Source: Promethearchaeota archaeon
Lineage (GTDB): Archaea > Asgardarchaeota > Lokiarchaeia > Sigynarchaeales > SOKP01
Length of the DNA: 62,370 nucleotides
Assembly: GCA_013375495.1 (NCBI GenBank)
Contig: JABXKC010000022.1
Coordinates: 1 to 62,370, forward strand
Direction of reading: 5' to 3'
The notes beneath the pieces were generated by a model. It did not search any database. It had not been told where the DNA came from and saw nothing but the letters and a program-made list of their open reading frames with translations. The position numbers were made by a program, and so were the translations under genes. Below are positions 3,763-49,250 of the stretch, piece by piece. Each line of letters opens with the position of its first letter. The stretch's first letter is position 1.

Positions 3763-5001
3763 TTATTTGCTAAGTTTTTTCCTTCTTAAATTTCTTTCAA
3801 GATCCTCAGGTTCTATAGTCATTTTTTGGCCACTTAACAAAGCAGAAACTCCGATTTGTTGTTCGCAATCTTCGCAATGACACTCTGGTATATAGTTCGT
3901 GGGTTCTTCGTAGGTTGTAATAACACCCTCAAAATTCCTTAAGACAACTCTTGTGTTTCCTTGTGAAATTGTATAATCGGGCATCACGGGTATTTTACCT
4001 CCGCCACCCGGGGCGTCAACAACATAGGTAGGAACACATAAACCTGATGTATGACCTCTTAAACCTTCGATAATTTCAATTCCTTGTGCCACACTTGTTC
4101 TGAAATGCCCTAATCCTACGGATAAATCGCATTGATAAATATAGTACGGACGGACTCTAATTTTTACTAGCTCGTGGACTAACTTCTTCATTACATGTAT
4201 GCAGTCGTTTACACCACGCAGTAGAACTGATTGATTTCCAAGGGGAATACCTGCATTTGCAAGCATTTCACATGCCCTTGTAGAATCTTCAGTTATCTCG
4301 TTCGGATGGTTAAAGTGGGTATTAAACCATATAGGATGATATTGTTGAAGCATTTCACATAGATCAGGAGTAATTCGTTGAGGCATAACAACGGGGCTTC
4401 TTGATCCTAGTCTAATGATTTCTACATGAGGGATTTCCTTTAAACTTATTAAAACATTCTCTAACAATTTATCAGAAATAAGCATAGCGTCTCCCCCAGA
4501 TAACAAAACATCTCTAATTGAGGGCGTTTCTTGGATATAATCTATACATTTATCTATCTGATCTTTTGGAGGTGCCTTATCGTGGTGACCCGCGAACCGT
4601 CTTCGAGTACAGTGTCTGCAGTACATCGAACAGTTTTCCGTTACTAAAAATAATACTCGATCTGGGTATCTATGAGTTAAACCGGGAGTAGGACTATCAA
4701 CGTCTTCGTGAAGTGGATCATCTAAATCAGCGGGATATCTTATAAGCTCGTGAATTGTAGGAATTGCTTGTTTACGAATTGGGTCGTATGGATCGTGGGG
4801 ATCGATTAAGGATAAGTAATAAGGGGTGATAGCCATTCTCATCTTTTCCATAATACTCGGATCGTCTTCTTCTTTTGTTAAAGGGATGAATTCTTTGAGT
4901 TCTTCGAGGGTAGTTATTCTATTTCTAAACTGCCATCTCCAGTTATTCCAATCTTCGTCGCTTACTTTCCCAAATAATTCCATTCGCCTATTTACTTTCA
5001 T
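3763..5001 (-). CDS. kamA: L-lysine 2,3-aminomutase
   Basis: Radical SAM, PLP-dependent enzyme converting L-lysine to L-beta-lysine, the first step of lysine fermentation. The cluster-binding cysteines are C124, C128 and C131 (C-x3-C-x2-C). The PLP lysine is K336 in P-G-G-G-G-K. D292 and D329 match, with a one-residue offset, the aspartates that hold the substrate epsilon-amino group in the clostridial enzyme, which supports lysine rather than glutamate specificity. C-terminal cysteines (C-H-C-E-D-C) form the usual zinc site. Length 412 is normal. It is the first gene of the kam operon, 119 bases upstream of kamB. Confidence 0.96.
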   Translation of the reverse strand: MKVNRRMELFGKVSDEDWNNWRWQFRNRITTLEELKEFIPLTKEEDDPSIMEKMRMAITPYYLSLIDPHDPYDPIRKQAIPTIHELIRYPADLDDPLHEDVDSPTPGLTHRYPDRVLFLVTENCSMYCRHCTRRRFAGHHDKAPPKDQIDKCIDYIQETPSIRDVLLSGGDAMLISDKLLENVLISLKEIPHVEIIRLGSRSPVVMPQRITPDLCEMLQQYHPIWFNTHFNHPNEITEDSTRACEMLANAGIPLGNQSVLLRGVNDCIHVMKKLVHELVKIRVRPYYIYQCDLSVGLGHFRTSVAQGIEIIEGLRGHTSGLCVPTYVVDAPGGGGKIPVMPDYTISQGNTRVVLRNFEGVITTYEEPTNYIPECHCEDCEQQIGVSALLSGQKMTIEPEDLERNLRRKKLSK

Positions 5002-7287: not shown

Positions 7288-7514
7288 AAGACATTCTCCA
7301 TCTATATCTTCGAAAATTATTGTTTTAGAATCTAAACTAACTAAATAATCGTTAAAATTATAATTTTTTCAAAACTCTAAGATCAGTTAACTTTTTTAGT
7401 TTACGGTGCATAAAATAGTTAATACAATACATTTTAGCAAGTATAGGTATCTCTAAAATAAGAACTCAATAGTGAATTAATATGACATTTCTAAAAATTA
7501 AGGGAGTTAATCTA

Positions 7515-7592
7515 TTGAGTTTAGTCTTTGTTGATGGGTCGAATAACTCAAATATTTTTAGATCAGAACATCATCATCACCATCATAAATAA
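7515..7592 (+). CDS. Histidine leader peptide (six consecutive His codons)
   Basis: A short frame starting TTG at 7515 behind an AGGGAG ribosome site at 7501-7506 (8-base spacing) encodes about 25 residues. It ends E-H-H-H-H-H-H-K before TAA at 7590. The histidine codons occupy 7569-7586 (five CAT, one CAC). An in-frame ATG at 7482 could extend it to 36 residues but has no good ribosome site. The frame ends 86 bases before hisIE, the first gene of a complete his operon, on the same strand. Bacterial hisL leader peptides have the same form: a short frame rich in consecutive His codons just before the his genes. The regulatory role is inferred; the frame, codon run and position are directly visible. 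Confidence 0.85.
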   Translation: MSLVFVDGSNNSNIFRSEHHHHHHK

Positions 7593-7673
7593 TTCCTATG
7601 AATTAATGTAATTTATTTTATCATGTATTCATTGGAATTGAATCAAACTGAAATCTAATTCAGTTTTGGGGGT
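7592..7673 (+). promoter_or_regulatory. Candidate his-operon attenuator (alternative RNA hairpins masking the hisIE ribosome site)
   Basis: Two pairings exclude each other. Structure A: AACTGAA (7646-7652) with TTCAGTT (7659-7665), a 7-bp hairpin with a 6-base loop that leaves the GGGGGT ribosome site (7668-7673) open. Structure B: TGAATTA (7599-7605) with TAATTCA (7656-7662), extended by ATTCC (7592-7596) with GGGGT (7669-7673, two G-U pairs), which hides the ribosome site. A ribosome stalled on the His codons would cover about 7592-7600 and block B. There is no T-run after either hairpin, so control of translation is more likely than termination. Pairing was found by eye; no folding energies were computed. 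Confidence 0.6.
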
Positions 7674-7678
7674 ATATT

Positions 7679-8590
7679 ATGTTAATATTAAAAGTTGAAA
7701 TTAAAAAATTGGAACCGGTTGGAGGAATTATCCAGTTTATCAAAGAGGTATTTTTAAAAAGGAATTGGGACGTTGTTTTTACTTTAGTACTAAAAATCAA
7801 TGAACAAGATATAAATACACTGATTGCGAACAATAAAAATTTGAAAGAAATTTCTCAAAATTTAGATCTAAGATTTGAAATTGAGGAAGCTCAGAATGAG
7901 ATCATAAATCTGTTATACAAGAACGGCTATAAAGTTATTTCTCTCTCGTTACCAAACCGTTATGAAATCATTAATTTTGATTCAAAAATGAAATACTCGC
8001 TAATAGATAATCGTCTGTTAAATATTCTCGATTTTAAGAAAGGATTAGGACTAATTCCGACAATAGTACAAGATCAGAACAATACTGTGCTAATGCTCGC
8101 ATACTCTTCTGAAGAATCACTGAAAAATACAATACTTACTCGGAAGGCGACCTATTTCAGTAGATCGAGAAATAAACTATGGATAAAAGGAGAGGAATCA
8201 GGAAATAGTCAAGAAGTAAAAAGAATATACTATGACTGTGATAATGACTCTCTCTTGTTTAAAGTCGAGCAAATTGGATATGCTTGCCACAAAGGAACAT
8301 ATTCTTGTTTTCTGGATAAGGATTTTTCATTAAACGTTCTCTACGATATAATCAATAACCGAATAGAGAATTCTACAGTAGAAGAATCGTATACTAAGAG
8401 GTTAGCTGAAGATGATAATTTATTACTTTCAAAAATCAAAGAAGAATGCTTAGAAGTGATAAATTTCACTGACAGAGATAACCTTATCTGGGAAATTGCT
8501 GACTTAACGTATTTTATCTTAGTCTTAATGGCAACACAAAAAATAAATCTAAGTGAAATTATAAATGAATTAAGGAGGCGAAACAAGTGA
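7679..8590 (+). CDS. hisIE: Phosphoribosyl-AMP cyclohydrolase / phosphoribosyl-ATP pyrophosphatase with N-terminal extension
   Basis: Bifunctional histidine-pathway enzyme for steps 2 and 3. Residues about 122-213 are the HisI cyclohydrolase, with the magnesium motif D-C-D-N-D near 186-190 and the zinc ligands in [12 protein letters not shown] near 201-211. Residues about 220-303 are the helical HisE pyrophosphohydrolase (K-E-E-C-L-E-V, then W-E-I-A-D-L-T-Y). The first ~120 residues are extra: a mixed alpha/beta stretch I do not recognise, absent from ordinary ~200-residue HisIE. First gene of the operon, preceded by GGGGGT 5 bases before the ATG and by the His leader; its stop overlaps hisG. 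Confidence 0.9.
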
Positions 8591-9594
8591 AAAAAGAAGA
8601 GCTTAACTATAAATCACGACAAGTGAGACTAGCAGTACCTTCAAAAGGAAGAATGGAAAAGGAAACCCAAGATTTCTTAAAAGAATGTGGATTTAACATA
8701 CAAAGGAATAACAGACAGTATATTGGCTCTATAAATGGCCCCATTGATCTCCAATTAGTGTATCAACGACAAGTGGATATCGTCAGAGGTGTCCTTAATG
8801 GCTCGATTGAGCTTGGAATAGTTGGTTATGATTTAGTTCTTGAATATTTACCTGACGAGAATAAGGATATAGTAGTTATACATGATGCATTAGGTTTTGG
8901 GAAATGTAGTCTTGAAATTGCTGTTCCTGAAGATTGGTTGGAATCTTCAATAGAAGAAATAAAACTAAAAGGAGAAAAAGCCCAAATTAGAGTTGCAACC
9001 AAATTTCCAAAACTTACTAAGCAGTTTTTAACCTCATGTGGAATCTCTTTTTCGATTGTGAGAGGGAATGGATCACTAGAGGTTTATCCCGAGCTTGGTT
9101 ATAGTGAAATAATCGTCGATCTTGTCTCTACGGGAAAGACTCTAAAGGATAATAGATTAAAAAGAATTGATGGAGGGGAAATAATGAGTTCTGAGGCGGT
9201 ATTGATAGGTAACCGAATTGCTTTAAGAAATGAAGCTGTTATGAAGGTTACTCGTGAATTGATTGAGTATTTTGAAGCTACGCTTAGAGCAAAGAGATTC
9301 GTGTCAGTCTTTGTAAATATGAGGGGTGAAAGTGGTAAAGATATAGCTGAATCGATTTTTTCTAAAAAAGGTCTAGAAGGGCTTGAGGGTCCAACTATTT
9401 CATCAGTTTATAATAAAGATGAAGAAAAAATGTATGCAGTTCACATTATCGTCGAAAAGGAAAAATTACAAGATGCTATAAAAGGTTTACGTGATATAGG
9501 TGGTAGTGGTGTAGTGGTAGCTCCAACACTCTATATCTTTGAAGAGGAACCTAAACGCTACAAGAAATTACTTAAGAATTTGGAGGAAAATTGA
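8587..9594 (+). CDS. hisG: ATP phosphoribosyltransferase (long form)
   Basis: Catalyses the first committed step, ATP plus PRPP to phosphoribosyl-ATP. At 335 residues it is the long HisG form: catalytic periplasmic-binding-like lobes (start [11 protein letters not shown]) plus a C-terminal ACT-like regulatory domain from about residue 235 (S-V-F-V-N-M-R-G-E). The long form is normally feedback-inhibited by histidine and does not need HisZ, so control at the enzyme level is expected besides any attenuator. Start overlaps the end of hisIE by 4 bases and the stop overlaps hisD by 4 bases. The N-terminal ~10 residues before the conserved strand are slightly longer than usual. Confidence 0.95.
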
Positions 9595-10916
9595 TGATAC
9601 CGATTTATTCATTAGTGGAAGCAAAAAGAACGATATTAATACGGAAATCTATAGTTGATACAAAAGCATCTCCACAAATAAACGATCAGATCGTCAAGCT
9701 TTTCGGGGAGGCTTTAACCATACAGGAGGTAGTTAAACTAATTATTGATGATGTTGCAAAGAATAACGATCGAGCATTAATCGAGTGGACTGAGAAATTA
9801 GACAAATATGATATCTCCAATTCAATTGAAGTTAACAGTTGGCAAATGGAAGAAGCTCTAAAAAGGATAGAACCAGAGTTGAGGGATGTTTTAACTGAAA
9901 CTAGAGGTAGAATTTTAGCCTTTCACCAAAAACAACCGGTATCTTCTTGGACAACGAACGAGTTAGGGGGAAGACTCGGTCAAATAATAACTCCCATTCA
10001 AAGAGTAGGATTTTACGTTCCTGGTGGATCTACTCCGCTTCCATCAACCATAATTCATAGCGTTTGCCCTGCTCTCGTAGCAGGTGTTGACGAGATTATA
10101 ATAGTAAGTCCACCTCCTATTTCTCCCATAATTTTAGCTACTTGTGAGTTAATGCGAGAGATGAATGCGAAGCTTAGAATATTTCAAATAGGAGGAGCCC
10201 AAGCTATTGCCGCTCTCGCTTTCGGTACGAAATCAGTTCCAAAAGTTAATAAAATTGTCGGTCCCGGTAATATTTTTGTAACATTGGCTAAAAGAGAAGT
10301 GTTTGGAATTGTAGGAATTGATGGTATCGCTGGTCCAACCGAAGCAGTTATTTTAGCTGATAAAACTGCGAATCCTGAATTAATTGCGTCCGATTTACTC
10401 GCACAAGCCGAGCATGATTATCTATCAATCCCGATTTTAATAACCACGAGTTCGGAACTTGCGAGTTTGGTTAAAATTTCGATTGAAGAACAATTGTCAA
10501 AGTTATCACGCGCTGAAAAAGCGCTATACGCAATTGAAAATAATGGAGGGATAATTTTAGTGGACAATATTGCGGAAGCCGTTTCTATAGTAAACGATTT
10601 TGCTCCAGAACACTTATCTATTGTAATGAAAAACCAACAAGAAATTGTGTCGCAAATAAAAAATTCTGGAGGGATTTTTATTGGGGAATCTTCTTGTGAA
10701 GTGATGGGCGATTATGTAGCAGGTCCTAGCCATGTGATGCCAACGGGTGGTGCTGCGAAATTTTCTTCGCCCCTTTCCGTTTTGGATTTTTTGAAAATTA
10801 CGAGTCTAGTTGCTTTAGATATAGAAACCGTAAAAATATTAGCACCTATCGCAGAGATATTAGCTTGTAAGGAAAACCTTACTGCCCATTCAGAGGCAGC
10901 TAGGAGGAGAATATAA
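9591..10916 (+). CDS. hisD: Histidinol dehydrogenase
   Basis: Zinc enzyme performing the last two oxidations, L-histidinol to L-histidine, with NAD. The 441-residue length is standard. Visible signatures include G-F-Y-V-P-G-G-S-T-P-L-P-S-T, the K-I-V-G-P-G-N strand, G-P-T-E, the zinc-binding region L-L-A-Q-A-E-H-D, and the A-P-E-H-L and G-P-S-H-V-M-P-T-G-G segments near the C-terminus. Overlaps hisG at its start and hisC at its stop by one base (TAATG), so it is translationally coupled within the operon. Confidence 0.97.
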   Translation: MMIPIYSLVEAKRTILIRKSIVDTKASPQINDQIVKLFGEALTIQEVVKLIIDDVAKNNDRALIEWTEKLDKYDISNSIEVNSWQMEEALKRIEPELRDVLTETRGRILAFHQKQPVSSWTTNELGGRLGQIITPIQRVGFYVPGGSTPLPSTIIHSVCPALVAGVDEIIIVSPPPISPIILATCELMREMNAKLRIFQIGGAQAIAALAFGTKSVPKVNKIVGPGNIFVTLAKREVFGIVGIDGIAGPTEAVILADKTANPELIASDLLAQAEHDYLSIPILITTSSELASLVKISIEEQLSKLSRAEKALYAIENNGGIILVDNIAEAVSIVNDFAPEHLSIVMKNQQEIVSQIKNSGGIFIGESSCEVMGDYVAGPSHVMPTGGAAKFSSPLSVLDFLKITSLVALDIETVKILAPIAEILACKENLTAHSEAARRRI

Positions 10917-12040
10917 TGGTAAAAATAAAGACCGTAGAACATCTTAATTCACTAGAACGCTATATCGGAGTAAAACCGTTAAATATAATTGCGGGGGAAT
11001 TGAATATACCAGTTTCTAATATAATCAAACTCGATGGGAACGAAAATCCTTACGAGCCACTTCCGGAGGTTCTTTCTGTGTTAAACTCTCTAAAAAACAT
11101 TAGTCATTATCCTGACCCACTATCATCAGATTTAGTAGAAGCAATAGCAAAAAAAGAAAATATCGAACCAAATAACATTATCGTAAGCTCAGGCTCAGAC
11201 GAGTTGATTGAATTATTAATGAAAGCGTACGCAAGTCCTTCAGACACAGTTCTTTCTGTATCTCCTACGTTTGGTATGATCTCGTTTTTATCTCAAGTAA
11301 ACGGAATAAAAAATACAGCAATTTCTCAGCGACTTGTAAAAGAAGGGTCTTTTGCTCGCTACACGCTCGACGAAGATCGTTTTCTTAAAGAAGCAAAGGA
11401 TTCGAAAATCGTGTTTATTGCTCGCCCGAATAATCCCGACGGAAAGGTTGTTTCAGAAGAATTTATTGAGCGCTTAGCGAGTCTCCCCATTATGGTTGTT
11501 ATTGACGAAGCTTACATAGAATTCGCAAATTGTCAAAGCCTTGCTAAATTGATCTCTCAATACGAGAATCTTGTAGTTCTCCGAACGTTTAGTAAGGCTT
11601 ATGGTTTAGGAGGGTTACGTGTTGGATATGGGATTATGCCCAACGATATTAGAACCGTCTTAGTTTCAATTAAACAACCATACAATGTTAATATCGCCGG
11701 ACAGAAAGCAGCTTTTGTAGCAATTACTAGCCCACTTGTGGAACAAAGAATAGAAAAAATGAAGAAAACGAGAGAGTTTTTCGTTGGACAGCTTAAAGCA
11801 GTTCAGGATGAATGCAAAAACTTCTGGATTCACCCCAGCGAGGCTTGCTATGTTCTTCTCACCTTCGATTCACCGGAGATTCCGAAAAAACTTTATAATC
11901 ATTTCTATTCAAAGGGCATTTTAGTACGATATTATTCTACACCAGATATGAGCAATAATCTTAGAATAAGTATTGGGCTCCAAGAAGATATGGAAAAGGT
12001 TATTTCTGAACTCAAATTATTTTTAAAAGGAGGAAATTAA
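10916..12040 (+). CDS. hisC: Histidinol-phosphate aminotransferase
   Basis: PLP fold-type I aminotransferase making L-histidinol phosphate from imidazole acetol phosphate. The 374 residues contain the substrate-side start L-D-G-N-E-N-P-Y-E-P, the cofactor site R-P-N-N-P-D-G (about 170-176), D-E-A-Y (about 197-200) and the Schiff-base lysine K227 in T-F-S-K-A-Y-G-L-G-G-L-R-V-G-Y. The start overlaps hisD by one base and hisB begins one base after the stop, so it is in the same transcript. Confidence 0.96.
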   Translation: MVKIKTVEHLNSLERYIGVKPLNIIAGELNIPVSNIIKLDGNENPYEPLPEVLSVLNSLKNISHYPDPLSSDLVEAIAKKENIEPNNIIVSSGSDELIELLMKAYASPSDTVLSVSPTFGMISFLSQVNGIKNTAISQRLVKEGSFARYTLDEDRFLKEAKDSKIVFIARPNNPDGKVVSEEFIERLASLPIMVVIDEAYIEFANCQSLAKLISQYENLVVLRTFSKAYGLGGLRVGYGIMPNDIRTVLVSIKQPYNVNIAGQKAAFVAITSPLVEQRIEKMKKTREFFVGQLKAVQDECKNFWIHPSEACYVLLTFDSPEIPKKLYNHFYSKGILVRYYSTPDMSNNLRISIGLQEDMEKVISELKLFLKGGN

Positions 12041-12041
12041 A

Positions 12042-12647
12042 ATGAATCGTCAATCAACCCAAGAAAGAACGACGAAAGAGTCAACTATTAGCGCATCGTT
12101 GAATTTGGATGGCTCTGGAAATGTGAATATAGATACCGGGATCGGTTTTTTCGATCATATGCTAAAACACATTGCAATTCATGGAATCTTTGACATTGAG
12201 GTGAAAGCAAAAGGAGATCTCCATGTCGACACTCATCACACCATTGAAGATGTAGCGATAGTGTTAGGTAAGGCTTTTAATCACGCAATTGGAGATAAAG
12301 TAGGTATTAAACGCATTGGATCATCTTATGTTCCAATGGACGAAGCCTTGGCATTAGTCGTAGTTGATTTTTCTAATCGTCCCTATTCTGTTATCGATAT
12401 TCCTTGGACGGGTAAATATTTCGGAAAGGACCAAGGCGAGTTAATTCCATTCTCTTTGATAGAGCACTTCTTACAGACTTTTGCTACAAATGCTAGTATA
12501 ACTTTAAACGTGAAAGTGCTTTCTGGTAAAGACGATCATCACATTGCTGAATCCGTTTTCAAAGCTCTTGGGTCATCCCTTGATAAGGCGTCTCGATTTG
12601 ATCCTAAGCGAAAGGGGGTTGTTCCATCTACAAAGGGGATACTATGA
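12042..12647 (+). CDS. hisB: Imidazoleglycerol-phosphate dehydratase
   Basis: Manganese-dependent dehydratase, monofunctional at 201 residues with no fused phosphatase. Metal-binding histidine clusters typical of the family are present: F-F-D-H-M-L-K-H near residue 40, D-T-H-H-T-I-E-D near 65-72, and D-D-H-H-I-A-E-S near 165-172. Because HisB lacks a phosphatase domain and no hisN/hisK follows, histidinol-phosphate hydrolysis must come from elsewhere; the PHP gene at the left edge is one candidate. The ribosome site AGGAGG lies at the end of hisC, and the stop overlaps hisH by 4 bases. Confidence 0.96.
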   Translation: MNRQSTQERTTKESTISASLNLDGSGNVNIDTGIGFFDHMLKHIAIHGIFDIEVKAKGDLHVDTHHTIEDVAIVLGKAFNHAIGDKVGIKRIGSSYVPMDEALALVVVDFSNRPYSVIDIPWTGKYFGKDQGELIPFSLIEHFLQTFATNASITLNVKVLSGKDDHHIAESVFKALGSSLDKASRFDPKRKGVVPSTKGIL

Positions 12648-13240
12648 TCACGATAGTTGATTATGGCACTGGAAATTTGCGCTCAGTTCAAAAAGCACTT
12701 CAAAGATATTATTCGGAAGTGGTAGTATCAAACGATGCAGAACATATAAGAGAATCGAAAGGCCTTGTATTACCTGGAGTGGGTGCGTTTGGAGATGCTA
12801 TCGAAGAATTAGAACAAAGCAGGCTGTTTGACTTGCTAAAAAGGATTATCCCCACCAAACCGACCTTAGGGATATGTTTAGGAATGCAATTAATGCTCGA
12901 TCGATCTGAAGAAAGTCCCGGAGTGAAGGGATTTGGTGTCGTTCCTGGATATGTAAGAAAGCTCGTAATCAAAAAATCGATTAGAGTTCCACATACAGGA
13001 TGGAACCACGTAACTGGAGTTAAGGAACCGTATTTTTCCGGATTTGCTTACTTTAATCACGCGTATTATTGTGATGTAGTAGATAAAGATATTGTAACCG
13101 CTTTCTCTTTACACGGGATAAGATTTTGCGTAATTTTTAAACAGGAAACGATACTAGGATTGCAGTTTCATCCCGAAAAGAGTAAGACTATTGGAGAAAA
13201 TATTTTAAATTATTGGGTTAAACAGGTGAATTTAGCATAA
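12644..13240 (+). CDS. hisH: Imidazole glycerol phosphate synthase, glutaminase subunit
   Basis: Class I glutamine amidotransferase supplying ammonia to the HisF part of the downstream fusion. The 198 residues show the oxyanion strand (L-P-G-V-G-A-F-G-D), the nucleophile C78 in G-I-C-L-G-M-Q-L, and the catalytic pair H176 and E178 in Q-F-H-P-E-K-S. The start overlaps hisB by 4 bases. The coding end contains the GGTG that probably serves as ribosome site for the following hisAF gene. Confidence 0.95.
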
Positions 13241-13257
13241 AAACGCTCATACCTGCT

Positions 13258-14739
13258 ATGGATATTAGAGAAGGAAAGGTTATAAGGCTCACACAGGGGG
13301 ATTTTTCTAAGCAGATTACATATTCTAATGACCCCTTAGCCATCCTTAGACAATTCATAGAAGTTGGTGCTTTGTGGATCCATGTTGTTAATTTAGATGG
13401 AGCTTTAACAGGAAATTTTCGGGAAAATCTTAGCTATCCCGTTATTATGAATCTTATTACACTCTCAAAACAAGCTGGAATTAAAATTCAAATTGGGGGG
13501 GGAATTCGGAGCATTGAAATCGTTGATGAATTAATAAATAAGGGGGCTGACCGAATAATATTAGGTACAATTGCGTTGGACGATGAAAAACTTTTAAGCA
13601 TTTTATCTAATCAAGATAAAAGTAAAATTGCTATTGCTCTAGACACTTCTAACAGAACGATACGCATAAAAGGCTGGCAGATTGATTCAAATTTAGATAT
13701 CTTTAATGTTTTATCTAAATTGGAAAATTTAGGAATCCGCAATTTTATAGTTACAGATATAATGAAAGATGGTACTTCAACTGGTTTAAATGTTAATCTG
13801 TTTTTAGAACTAATGAAGAAAAAAAAGCCAAACACTAGAATTACTGCCTCAGGTGGAGTTTCAAACATTAATGATGTAGAAAATGCATTATTGTATGCTG
13901 ATAGTGTTATTGTTGGTAAAGCTTTGTATAATGGGAACATTCCCCTAACAGTTTTAGGTACTTTCCTTGATAATCTTCATAATTCAAGACTGATAAAAAG
14001 AATAATCCCTTGTTTAGATGTAAAAAATGGGAGAGTTGTCAAGGGAGTTAAATTCAAAAATTTACGAGATAGTGGAGATCCCGTTGAATTAGCACGATTT
14101 TATAACAATAACGGAGCAGATGAATTAGTTTTCTTAGACATCTCAGCAACTCTAGAAGGACGAAAAAGTATGCTAAATACAATTCGATTAGTAGCTGAAG
14201 AAATCTTTATTCCATTAACAGTTGGTGGGGGAATAAAAACGATTGAGGATATGACTGCGATTATCAAAGCAGGAGCAGAGAAAGTTAGCATTAACTCAGC
14301 AGCTATAAACGATCCAAATTTAATTACTAAAGGTGCGAAGAAATTTGGCTCTCAATGCATTGTTGTAGCTATTGATGCTAAAAAAAAAGGCGAATCATGG
14401 GAAGTATATTCGCACAGCGGCACAAAACCTACTGGACTCGATGTATTAAAATGGGTAAAAACAGTTGTAGATAAGGGAGCGGGGGAACTATTAGTTACAA
14501 GCATGGACAGAGATGGTACTAACTCAGGATATGATCTTGATTTAATCCGAGCCATTACGGATATTGTGTCTGTACCAGTGATCGCGTCAGGGGGAGCTGG
14601 AAATAATGAGCACTTTGTAGAGGCAATCAATAACGGAGCTGAAGCTGTATTAGCTGCTTCCTTATTTCATTACAACCGTTTGACAATCCAAGATTTAAAA
14701 GAATTTTTAAATAGTCATGATGTTTTGGTAAGAATATAA
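13258..14739 (+). CDS. hisAF: HisA-HisF fusion: ProFAR isomerase and cyclase subunit of IGP synthase
   Basis: Two TIM barrels in one chain. Residues 1 to about 240 are HisA and about 245-493 are HisF ([16 protein letters not shown], later T-S-M-D-R-D-G-T). The first in-frame ATG is 13258, but the codons before it (from 13237) read I-K-T-L-I-P-A, which is the expected first beta strand of HisA. The true start is therefore probably upstream and non-canonical, perhaps the ATA at 13237, 8 bases after GGTG. The catalytic aspartate just after M is kept either way. HisA and HisF catalyse consecutive steps, and fusion would place both barrels with HisH. Confidence 0.9.
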
Positions 14740-45638: not shown

Positions 45639-48600
45639 TTAATCATTTAAATGTAAAATTGCGCAGGCACTTAAATTAGTATAATATTTGGCTCTGTTTC
45701 TTTTACTCATCTCTCTTTTAAGATCTTCGAATTCAAAAGCCAAATCATCTAACTTTTTATCAACTTTTACTAGATCTTTTTCGATAAATCGAATTTCTTC
45801 TTTTAATTTATCGATTTTATCCAAGCGATCTTGCCTTTTTTGTTTATCCTCTATACTTTTAATATTTAGTAATTGCCGTTCGGTCGGTTTCTTGCCTTCT
45901 TTTTTCTCTAATTTTTGTTTTAATGATTCCAGTTTAAATGTTAGTTGTCTCTTATTAAATATAAATATTTTCTCTTTTTTCTTAGTTTCAATTTTAAAAA
46001 TCTTGGCGTTTAGAGCTTTTATTTCATTTTTCCATTGAGATGTCTTCCATTTTACAAGATTTTTGGCTTTTTGAGTTAGATCGTCAAGAAAATTTAGGTC
46101 TACTTGAGATATATTGTTATCCACATTCTCAATTACAATAAGATCTTGAAAATTTTCAATATCTAATACAAAATCTGCTAAATCTGGAATCTCATTACCA
46201 CGATTATCTACTGATATTGCAGAATATTGATTTTCTAAAATATAACCCTGATATTTTACATTAAATACGAATAAATACAAATCTTTTCTAGATGAAAAAT
46301 AGGATATTAAATGATTTGGTAAAACACTCTTTTTCAAATTTAGAACTGTAAATATCCCCTCTAAAGCTCTCGACCTACAAAAATCTATTAAATCGTTAAT
46401 TAACGGATGCCCTAAAGCAAAAAAATCGATTTCTTCTCTTTCTCGAGCAAGATCCAAATCAAATGTGCCAAGATATTCCTTTTCCAATCTATATTTAGGA
46501 TTTTTTAATAAAGGGTCATTTATCGTAATTTTGGTTTCATTTTTTAATATTTTTGGAGCATTTTTATTGCTCTCTTTAAGGTTATCTACAAATCCATATT
46601 TACCAGGGTAGAGATCAAAAAAATAATTTATAAGTAAAAATAACTCGTTATGGCTTAATTTTACTTCTTGACACGCTTCTACTGATGTAATTAGGTCGTC
46701 AATTTGGAACGACTTTTTATCGATCAGTAAATCGTCTAATTGCATTTCAATTTCTTTTGCCTTTTTTACTTCAATATCGACTTTCCTATTGAATTCATTG
46801 AACTTTTTTCGTCTCTTACCTTCTTCTTCGGTAAAGATTATGTTTTTGATATCCTTCTCAATTTTACCAATAATAGGTTCGAGTTGGCCTATTGATTCTT
46901 CAAAAAGGTGTATTCTTTTATCGAGCGCAAACATGATATCAGTTTCGATAGTTCCCTCGAGATAAAAGTTATATATGTAAATTTTTTTAGATTTCTGACC
47001 GATTCTGTCAAGTCGTCCAATTCGTTGTTCTAACTTCATAGGATTCCAGGGTAAATCATAATTAATTAAAATCCTGGCAAATTGAAAATTCCTACCTTCA
47101 CCACCTATTTCTGTAGAGATTAAAATAGCAAATTTTTCGTTAGTCCGGAATCTTTCTACTGCTTCGTCTTTTTGGACTTTATCTAATCCACCATAAAATG
47201 TTTCTATAAAATATTCTTCCTCTTGACTATTCAATAGCTCTTTTAAGTATAGAAGAGTATCAACGAATTGAGTGAAAACCAAGATCTTCTCAGTTGGGTT
47301 TTGACGATAAATCTGACCTACCAATTCCACGAGTTTCTGGCATTTAGAATCATATGGTAAAGCGTTCAATTTAGCATAAAAATCCTTTAATATCTTTTCT
47401 TGGTTTAGAAAATTTATTTCTGCTTTTTCTTCCTTTCTCGGTGATTCACTCTCACCATTGAAGGTAACCTCAGAATCTATAAATTCGTCTTCTAATTCCA
47501 ATTCGTAATATTCTGGATCTTCTTCCCTCAAGATGTTCATTTCAATAGAGAGATTTTTCTGTCGTTCAATTTGGTCTATCCGCCGTTCTAGGCTTTTCAA
47601 AAACGCATGTTTAGAACTTGTAAGCAATTTTTGTAGCGTTGTTATGATGAACCCTATTCCAATATTCTCTTTACTCGTTGATGTGTTGTAAATCTTTGCT
47701 AAATAAAGCCTAATTTCGTTATAGAGTTCTAATTCTTGCTTTGTAGGGTTAACGATTATCGTTTTAACGACTCGTTCGTTTATGAAGTCTTCCGAAAACA
47801 CATTCTTCTTACGATTCCTAATTAAAAATTGAGAAAGGGTATGATCTTTTTCAATTTTCTTTAATAAGTTTAATTTAAATTCGTCGTCTGTTAATTGATC
47901 AAGTATCTCTTTATCCGTCTTATTTTTATTTACATGGTTCAAGTTTTTAAGAAGCTTAATTGTGTTTTTTACTTCGAAATTGTTGAGTTTGTCGATCTGA
48001 TTAATGTTAGCGGTTAGCAAATTTATGAAAGGCATATTTTTCCGAAAATGTTCAAAATCTGAAAAGTTATCAAAAGCTTCTCTTTGAATCAATTCTATAA
48101 GAGAGTATAGTTCAAAAGAGTGTAGTTGTAGAGGTGTAGCCGATAACAACAGTAATGATTCAGTAGTTAAACTTAAATTTCTCGCTAAATCGTAGTTTAA
48201 TGTTTCCCGGTAGTTTCCAGTAGTAGCATTAATTAAATATCTACGCAAATGATGAGATTCGTCAAAAATCACTATGTCCCAGGAAATTTGAGAAAGCAAA
48301 TCTATATATTTCCGATTTCTCGCAAATTGGAGGGAACATATAATTAAATTATCGTAATAAAATGGATTCTGAAGCACCTCAGCACTTCTATGAGTTCCTC
48401 TCTTCTTTAATTCTTTGATTTTCTTCCCATCATATATTATAAACTCAATATTAAACTTATTTTGCATTTCAAACTGCCATTGTTTTACCAACGTAGCAGG
48501 GACGATAATTAAAATTCTCTCAGCGAGATTTCTGGCCATCATCTCTTTGATATAAATTCCGGCTTCGATAGTTTTTCCTAGTCCGACTTCGTCAGCTAAA

Positions 48601-49250
48601 ATAATTCGAGGAAAATATTCTTCTGATAATCTATGTGCAACATTTATTTGATGCGGCATAAGAGAAAGTCTAGAATTAGTAATACATTTTATTTGATAAG
48701 AGGTGTAGTATGAATAAAAGAGATTTGCCCAATATTTTATAAGAAAATTTTTAGGAGGATCTAATCTTTTTCTTGCTATTATCCTCTTAATGGGAGTCTC
48801 GTATTTTGAAATAATTTCAGATTCGTAAATTTGAGATAATTTCCCGCTTGGAAATAAAACTTCATAAGAGATGCTTCCATCCTTTATTAAAAAATTGTTA
48901 GAGTTGATGGTTCCAATTCCACCTTTAGTCAGGATTCTCTCATTAACTTCAAATGTATGATGTATGAGGTCAAGAGGGTGGATTATTTTTACTATATTAT
49001 TTTCAAACCTGACCTTATATTTAGTTATGAAAAAAGTATCTTCATCATCTAAGGATCTTGAAGCGGGAATATCTAACTTTTTTACAATTCTCCCAATACC
49101 TTGCTCGGGATTTAATCTATAAATAACTAAATTATCTATATTGAATTTATGCCCTTGGCAATAAACATTAAAACACTTTGAAAATCGGGATTCTAAAGAG
49201 TTAGTGCAAAATGGGCACTTATATTTAAAATCCTTACTATTAATAATCAT
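45639..49250 (-). CDS. Large SNF2/RapA-type helicase-like ATPase with N-terminal zinc ribbon
   Basis: 1203 residues. N-terminal zinc ribbon Y-K-C-P-F-C-T-N-S-L at 10-19 with a second pair C-F-N-V-Y-C near 30. Helicase motifs: Walker A L-A-D-E-V-G-L-G-K-T-I-E-A-G near 220-233, motif II F-D-E-S-H-H-L-R near 326-333, and C-terminal S-T-E-I-G-G-E-G-R-N-F-Q and Q-R-I-G-R-L-D-R-I-G-Q near 720-775. The last ~130 residues are charged coiled coil. The fold matches the RapA branch of SNF2 ATPases that remodel protein-DNA complexes or act in some defence systems. No methyltransferase or nuclease partner is adjacent, so a defence role is only possible. Confidence 0.88.
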   Translation of the reverse strand: MIINSKDFKYKCPFCTNSLESRFSKCFNVYCQGHKFNIDNLVIYRLNPEQGIGRIVKKLDIPASRSLDDEDTFFITKYKVRFENNIVKIIHPLDLIHHTFEVNERILTKGGIGTINSNNFLIKDGSISYEVLFPSGKLSQIYESEIISKYETPIKRIIARKRLDPPKNFLIKYWANLFYSYYTSYQIKCITNSRLSLMPHQINVAHRLSEEYFPRIILADEVGLGKTIEAGIYIKEMMARNLAERILIIVPATLVKQWQFEMQNKFNIEFIIYDGKKIKELKKRGTHRSAEVLQNPFYYDNLIICSLQFARNRKYIDLLSQISWDIVIFDESHHLRRYLINATTGNYRETLNYDLARNLSLTTESLLLLSATPLQLHSFELYSLIELIQREAFDNFSDFEHFRKNMPFINLLTANINQIDKLNNFEVKNTIKLLKNLNHVNKNKTDKEILDQLTDDEFKLNLLKKIEKDHTLSQFLIRNRKKNVFSEDFINERVVKTIIVNPTKQELELYNEIRLYLAKIYNTSTSKENIGIGFIITTLQKLLTSSKHAFLKSLERRIDQIERQKNLSIEMNILREEDPEYYELELEDEFIDSEVTFNGESESPRKEEKAEINFLNQEKILKDFYAKLNALPYDSKCQKLVELVGQIYRQNPTEKILVFTQFVDTLLYLKELLNSQEEEYFIETFYGGLDKVQKDEAVERFRTNEKFAILISTEIGGEGRNFQFARILINYDLPWNPMKLEQRIGRLDRIGQKSKKIYIYNFYLEGTIETDIMFALDKRIHLFEESIGQLEPIIGKIEKDIKNIIFTEEEGKRRKKFNEFNRKVDIEVKKAKEIEMQLDDLLIDKKSFQIDDLITSVEACQEVKLSHNELFLLINYFFDLYPGKYGFVDNLKESNKNAPKILKNETKITINDPLLKNPKYRLEKEYLGTFDLDLAREREEIDFFALGHPLINDLIDFCRSRALEGIFTVLNLKKSVLPNHLISYFSSRKDLYLFVFNVKYQGYILENQYSAISVDNRGNEIPDLADFVLDIENFQDLIVIENVDNNISQVDLNFLDDLTQKAKNLVKWKTSQWKNEIKALNAKIFKIETKKKEKIFIFNKRQLTFKLESLKQKLEKKEGKKPTERQLLNIKSIEDKQKRQDRLDKIDKLKEEIRFIEKDLVKVDKKLDDLAFEFEDLKREMSKRNRAKYYTNLSACAILHLND

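Follow-up and report, generated by a model that had tools for sequence, protein, structure and literature searches.

A putative histidine-codon leader peptide before the his operon of an Asgard archaeon, and similar Trp, Leu and Ile leaders in its relatives

The leader frame and the his operon

The window, the whole 62,370-nucleotide contig stretch of a Promethearchaeota archaeon that was analysed, carries a his operon of seven genes, hisIE, hisG, hisD, hisC, hisB, hisH and a hisA-hisF fusion, on the same strand as a short His-rich reading frame directly upstream; both the operon and its orientation were named in a preliminary description of this DNA and were confirmed. The frame contains six consecutive His codons (CAT CAT CAT CAC CAT CAT, 7569-7586), followed by AAA and the stop codon TAA at 7590-7592, and a gap of 86 nt separates this stop from the hisIE ATG at 7679, so that the earlier reading of six His codons, one Lys codon and a stop 86 nt before the first his gene is what the sequence holds. 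The features of the region are as follows.

7463 to 7471, forward strand: 5' arm of stem P1 (AACTCAATA), paired to 7513-7521 in six of the seven leaders aligned, once with an end mismatch
7482 to 7592, forward strand: leader peptide frame from its probable ATG, MTFLKIKGVNLLSLVFVDGSNNSNIFRSEHHHHHHK, then stop; a His-rich frame lies at the same place in 6/6 related loci with an extended HisIE
7513 to 7521, forward strand: 3' arm of stem P1 (TATTGAGTT), containing TTG 7515
7569 to 7586, forward strand: six His codons in a row, the putative control codons; the final codon lies 6 nt from the stop, as in 8/9 His leaders
7590 to 7640, forward strand: hairpin hp1, its base being the leader stop codon itself; supported by fold z-scores and by a closer fit between its own arms than with arms of relatives
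7645 to 7666, forward strand: hairpin hp2 (AAACTGAA..TTCAGTTT), directly before the ribosome-binding site and found in close His leaders
7668 to 7672, forward strand: probable Shine-Dalgarno sequence GGGGG of hisIE, with at least five G here in all six aligned close loci
7679 to 8590, forward strand: hisIE, the first gene, with Pfam PRA-CH and PRA-PH domains and an extra N-terminal part of about 103 residues that is conserved in relatives
8587 to 14739, forward strand: hisG, hisD, hisC, hisB, hisH and the hisA-hisF fusion, gene order by BLAST

The preliminary description had placed the start of the leader at TTG 7515. Upstream of this codon, however, the reading frame stays open as far as ATG 7482, which follows GTGA; a start there gives 36 codons instead of 25. 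An in-frame upstream ATG is present in four of the five nearest relatives (L085-L088), with TTG at this place in the fifth (L081). Since the relatives have upstream start codons and TTG 7515 sits inside the 3' arm of the conserved stem P1, ATG 7482 is the likelier start; the leader probably begins there, with TTG 7515 as an internal codon.

The N-terminal part of HisIE (about 103 residues, window 7679-7990) aligns with a shrunken HisA. A Pfam HisA domain is fused to HisIE in three proteins (P0095, P0107 and P0117), and forms of 385-400 residues look intermediate. Besides the operon with the His leader, a second hisG is located elsewhere in genomes G001 and G036, where two sets of his genes may coexist. 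In other parts of the window, 3763-5001 encodes a lysine 2,3-aminomutase scoring above the NCBIfam cut-off, and 45639-49250 an SNF2-type helicase resembling DrmD that scores below its cut-off.

His leaders in related genomes

Relatives were searched in 79 genomes of the order (Lokiarchaeota-type) and 227 genomes of the phylum. Among the matches listed in a contig scan, the HisIE of a Lokiarchaeota MAG (L001) was 65% identical to that of the window. All six loci of the order with a related N-terminal HisIE extension (in L089 the relationship is weak, 37% over 71 residues) had a His-rich frame directly upstream of hisIE, ending 83-87 nt before the gene, a range that also covers the window and thus all seven hisIE loci of this type. 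The peptides of the six relatives end in ..SHHLHHK, ..HFHHHQHHE, ..VHHWLHH, ..LHHWLHHE, ..AHHWHYHL and ..IMHHFPTHK: the His run is kept, while the rest of the peptide drifts in sequence and length, which is the pattern that the preliminary description had asked of related upstream regions. Compared with these relatives, the window has an unbroken run of six His codons and a shorter frame. Common stretches of the His peptides occur among the closest loci, with little in common with L089, L181 and L251.

The background rate of such frames was estimated from the window together with 40 hisG neighborhoods (L169-L208), in which genes were called and every frame of 6-70 codons in upstream regions of 60-400 nt was scored, yielding 810 frames in 337 upstream regions of the 41 sequences. 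Only nine of the 810 carried four or more His among their final 12 codons. Each of them stood directly before a his operon: the next gene was hisIE in seven cases, and in two (L181, L182) it was hisC, with which these operons start. The earlier judgement that the His run is very unlikely to have arisen here by chance is thereby upheld. Counting any stretch of 12 codons added two His-rich frames before other genes (L176, L201). The frame of L182 is included in these nine, although an extra base compared with L181 closes its longer frame, and it was therefore left out of the set of nine His leaders used for folding. His-rich frames were absent from all 150 upstream regions at phe, leu and ilv loci and occurred in one of 111 regions at trp loci (L236). 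A further scan of the phylum (20 his stretches) found them in 2 of 130 regions, once before another gene (L261) and once before hisIE in another order of the phylum (L251, ..SHHHHIHHHL).

No His leader was found at six hisIE-first operons with a longer HisIE (L173, L176-L180). As these share the upstream neighbor gene of the window (80-93% identity) and yet are without the leader, we conclude that it was gained or lost within the order. The 23 hisG-first stretches of the order were likewise without a His leader, two of them (L185, L208) ending within 60 nt upstream.

Trp, Leu and Ile leaders

In the order, 16 genomes had a TrpE match, and 12 of these contain a similar frame with Trp codons, as do additionally G029, G161 and G178. 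In five genomes frames ending in TWFWDWRWHA and similar tails precede trpE, and in one genome trpA; in nine more the frame stands before trpD, or before a small gene preceding trpD, with tails including FRWQWLWRA, FRWHWSWRA, LGWQMPWRY, SWTIWAWRL, PWWHWF, FFWSWSWHY and SWVWRG (trpD identity was confirmed by Pfam in three genomes). Relaxed criteria, applied once the first matches were known, added the leaders whose tails have just two Trp codons (G021, G022, G076). The order's four TrpE genomes that lack a leader comprise three with the locus on short contigs (G078, G012, G079) and G075, which shows none. At the level of the phylum, TrpE is present in 40 of 227 genomes, 15 of them with a leader, G111 and G113 being outside the leader check. 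Longer stretches of G162, G117, G118, G119 and G112 contained no accepted Trp leader; in G118 a two-Trp frame, MWYNNHSWLI, stands before trpE. Fourteen TrpE genomes were checked only with flanks of about 1.5 kb, and the Trp-rich frames seen among them at L214 and L215 were judged to be chance. In control regions, frames with at least three Trp in 12 codons numbered 0/323 at his loci of the order, 2/130 at the his stretches of the phylum (L247, L265) and 1/150 at phe, leu and ilv loci. One further archaeal phylum, to which a Methanofastidiosia genome belongs, was scanned at its trp loci (19 stretches with 55 upstream regions) and contained no three-Trp frame; the same scan gave a two-Trp frame, LWNWYFES (L416), upstream of a gene for 229 residues that has trpD-sized and trpE genes as neighbors. 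The small gene between the Trp leader and trpD encodes 83-87 residues in three genomes (L230, 6594-6845; L231, 11048-11305; L241, 6677-6940), and that of L241, the single one compared with NCBIfam, had no match there.

Leu leaders were found at 33 of 39 assessable leuA loci of the order, a 40th locus (L310) being left out of the assessment for lack of the leuA N-terminus. Among the first 30 loci, 21 had a frame with at least six Leu in 10 codons and 22 at a threshold of at least five; two more were added after correction of gene starts, and leaders at nine further loci brought the total to 33, the one at L324 being weak. The six loci without a Leu leader are L297, L301, L303, L307, L313 and L381. 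The his and trp loci served as control: one of their 591 upstream regions has a frame with at least seven Leu in 10 codons. LeuA itself is absent from all 35 genomes of the order to which G119 belongs.

Ile leaders (SFIIIIGII and IILIIIGII are examples) precede 13 of the 21 assessable genes of a second LeuA-like group, the citramalate synthase type (three genes were tested, and all three pass TIGR00977). The remaining eight (L365, L375 with short room, L376, L379 and L391-L394) have no Ile leader, and two genes that lack the N-terminus (L373, L380) stand outside the 21. No recurrent leader was seen before ilvC, where 24 of 30 loci have an upstream region of at least 60 nt and one Leu-rich frame was present (L334). 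For pheA, a region of this length is available at only 5 of 30 loci; a Phe/Tyr-rich frame, MDYFFFYYNYLKKD, lies 35 nt upstream of pheA (1216-2325) of L270 and is a possible aromatic leader.

Subsequent measurements of geometry, folding, hairpin arms and T-tracts include 31 of the 33 Leu leaders and 7 of the 13 Ile leaders, the others having been found later. The distance from the last control codon to the stop is nearly constant within each class: 6 nt in 8/9 His leaders, 3 nt in 28/31 Leu leaders, 9 nt in 14/15 Trp leaders and 3 or 6 nt in all seven Ile leaders. Trp codons stand at a fixed spacing and the tail of the peptide is kept. The leader stop lies 87-98 nt from the gene start in 26 of 31 leuA leaders. 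Codon choice within the runs is skewed, with TTA making up 195 of 297 Leu control codons (42% in neighboring genes), ATT 49 of 58 Ile codons (49%) and CAT 41 of 45 His codons (74%). The TTA and ATT skew perhaps marks particular tRNAs.

RNA structure of the leader region

In the window the folding z-score is -2.87 for 7590-7690 and -5.2 for its first 75 nt, and only -1.29 for the whole leader (7456-7690). Mean z-scores of the 75 nt from the stop are -3.7 for His, -3.0 for Leu and -3.2 for Ile leaders, whereas the Trp leaders show no folding excess in this stretch (-0.31). The hairpin hp1 is weak or absent after three of the nine His leaders (L089, z -0.7; L251, z 0.4; L181, z -0.8).

RNAalifold on a sequence-based alignment of the Leu leaders returned no structure, in our view because such an alignment does not match the hairpins; a permutation test was used instead, in which each 5' arm was paired with every 3' arm across genomes. 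At 28 Leu loci the native arms gave -19.4 kcal/mol, compared with -12.3 kcal/mol for exchanged arms; none of 20,000 permutations was as good, and the native 3' arm was the best of its row in 10 of the 28 loci. The same test gave p 0.004 for His (7 loci) and p 0.0004 for Ile (7 loci). Relatedness among genomes raises cross-pairing and so works against this result, whereas a base composition common to both arms within a genome could favor it and is uncontrolled. Near-duplicate or cut rows (L383, L326, L390) as well as L181 and L251 were left out. Overall, the hairpin at the stop codon is mostly present in His, Leu and Ile leaders and its arms co-vary. In the Trp leaders a small hairpin extends across the stop codon (arm permutation p 0.0004), with compensatory changes visible by eye (GCGCG/CGCGC and GCACG/CGUGC).

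Stem P1 (ACTCAATA/TATTGAGT, window 7463-7521 and relatives) encloses the leader start codon and may control initiation on the leader. It hardly varies, so that covariation cannot test it.

Proposed mechanism and alternatives

Taken together, the conserved run, its position before the his genes and the parallels with three other pathways strongly support control of this archaeal his operon by a His-codon leader peptide. We put at roughly 0.85 the probability that the frame encodes a regulatory leader peptide on which a translating ribosome would sense charged His-tRNA and so set expression of the operon. As to its parts, the leader frame is very probably translated; it is nearly as probable that ribosomes halt at the codon run when charged tRNA is scarce, and likely that the hairpin passes the position of the ribosome on to the operon. 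The footprint of a ribosome reaches about 12 nt past the first base of its A-site codon, and therefore a halt on the first control codons would leave the hairpin closed, while arrival at the stop codon would open its base. When the amino acid is scarce, the ribosome would be halted upstream of the hairpin, which would stay folded, with expression on; when it is plentiful, ribosomes would keep reaching the stop codon and hold the hairpin open, with expression low. This direction (closed meaning on) is proposed on grounds of biological sense.

The controlled step is placed with about even odds at translation of the first gene, and the near-constant distance between the leader stop and the gene would fit control of initiation or re-initiation there. 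Control of transcript elongation or factor-dependent termination is a distinctly less probable candidate, and an effect on mRNA stability is quite unlikely. Transcription termination in archaea can occur at U-rich sites or depend on protein factors, hence control at the level of transcription keeps its place among the candidates, most of all for the Trp leaders. As hp1 alone has covariation support, its route to the gene is invisible in the sequence.

The preliminary description had inferred the same sensing logic as in the enteric his operon. Sensing by His codons is supported by the relatives and by the Trp, Leu and Ile parallels, whereas the competing helices, the U-tract and an Rfam leader did not appear. 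A transcription attenuator of the bacterial type, in which ribosome stalling favors an antiterminator helix at the expense of a terminator hairpin with a U-tract behind it, shares with these loci the layout of the leader and the codon runs (PMC1183508), that is, an open frame with a run of end-product codons directly upstream of the matching biosynthetic genes, whose identities were checked on a sample. In the 27 Leu leaders used for alternative helices (the arm-test rows without L308), none of 11 helices besides hp1 was supported: the codon run and early leader did not pair with either arm of hp1, nor did an arm pair with the downstream region. In the His and Ile sets, with seven rows each and little power, four nominal values of 0.02-0.05 appeared among 11 helix tests each, and these were taken as noise. 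T5 tracts showed some excess over plain shuffles for Trp (10/15, 6.2 expected) and Ile (4/7, 2.0 expected), and tracts of T6 or longer followed 9 of 15 Trp leaders, with 5.4 expected by dinucleotide shuffling. Against dinucleotide shuffles, however, T5 tracts were not in excess in any set (His 1/9, 3.4 expected; Leu 8/31, 12.0; Ile 5/7, 5.7; Trp 10/15, 10.2). The relevant Rfam families comprise His, Trp, Leu/Phe and Thr leaders. At the gathering score Rfam gave no match in the window, and no leader family was among the matches for the leader region at E up to 10 or for ten relatives' loci at E up to 1. Because two defining features, mutually exclusive antiterminator and terminator helices and an intrinsic terminator with a U-tract, were sought and neither was found, we set these leaders apart from the bacterial class and consider an attenuator of that type very unlikely.

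Sequestering of the ribosome-binding site, whereby the ribosome opens hp1 and the freed 3' arm pairs with the hisIE start region and hides it, is somewhat less improbable and still unlikely. In L086 and L088 the 3' arm can indeed pair with the ribosome-binding site over 9-10 bases. Such pairing, good in single loci, failed the shuffle control, native pairing beating shuffled arms in 0/7 loci at the 0.1 level (across-loci permutation 0.044), and the Leu leaders have no such pairing. His runs bind metals, which would suit a small His-rich metal-binding protein with no regulatory role; equivalent Trp, Leu and Ile runs before matching biosynthetic genes, together with the drift of the peptide outside the run, make this highly improbable. 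Chance or an assembly artefact is next to inconceivable, given that separate genomes carry the His leader and that the frame-count controls speak against chance.

Relation to known systems and significance

Amino-acid leader peptides are a textbook bacterial mechanism, known from the enteric his, trp, leu and ilv operons (hisL, trpL, leuL, ilvL). The Asgard leaders resemble these in having a short frame with a run of end-product codons just upstream of the genes in the His, Trp, Leu and Ile pathways. They differ in the host, in runs that end 3-9 nt from the stop, in the single hairpin at the stop codon with no competing helices or U-tract terminator found, and in the location of the Ile leaders before citramalate synthase. 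With leaders of the ermBL type they have in common that occupancy of a short frame by the ribosome would change RNA structure near the next start. ErmBL-type leaders sense a drug through the nascent peptide, whereas in the present leaders the peptide drifts, it is mainly the codon run that persists, and a sequestering helix has no support. T-box RNAs likewise sense charged tRNA for amino-acid genes. They bind tRNA directly and have no translated frame, in contrast to the codon-run frames of the present loci; no T-box match was obtained with Rfam in the window, the leader region or ten relatives' loci. Eukaryotic uORFs such as those of GCN4 and the arginine attenuator peptide also combine a short upstream frame with amino-acid supply, and Asgard archaea have a eukaryote-like translation apparatus. 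The GCN4 uORFs are without cognate codon runs and the arginine attenuator acts via a conserved peptide; here, instead, one codon run is kept per pathway.

The matches listed in a search of the open literature, seen in part, included no archaeal amino-acid leader peptide. The comparison suggests that leader-peptide control in archaea is new, with an RNA layout simpler than that of bacterial attenuators, and that the leader-peptide principle is known. A broader reading, tentative and at a little under even odds, is a general Asgard system of charged-tRNA sensing with His, Trp, Leu and Ile leaders, a fixed distance from codon to stop, one hairpin at the stop codon and no terminator/antiterminator switch, which possibly works by controlling re-initiation at the next gene. 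If the leader-peptide reading is true, leaders for four pathways in the group most closely related to eukaryotes would mean that archaea couple translation to the expression of biosynthetic genes, by a single-hairpin design that differs from bacterial attenuators, and the loci would provide a natural means of assaying, in Asgard cells, either re-initiation or the coupling of transcription to translation. Should the general reading hold as well, it would mean that the archaea nearest to eukaryotes place amino-acid synthesis under a control of the uORF type.
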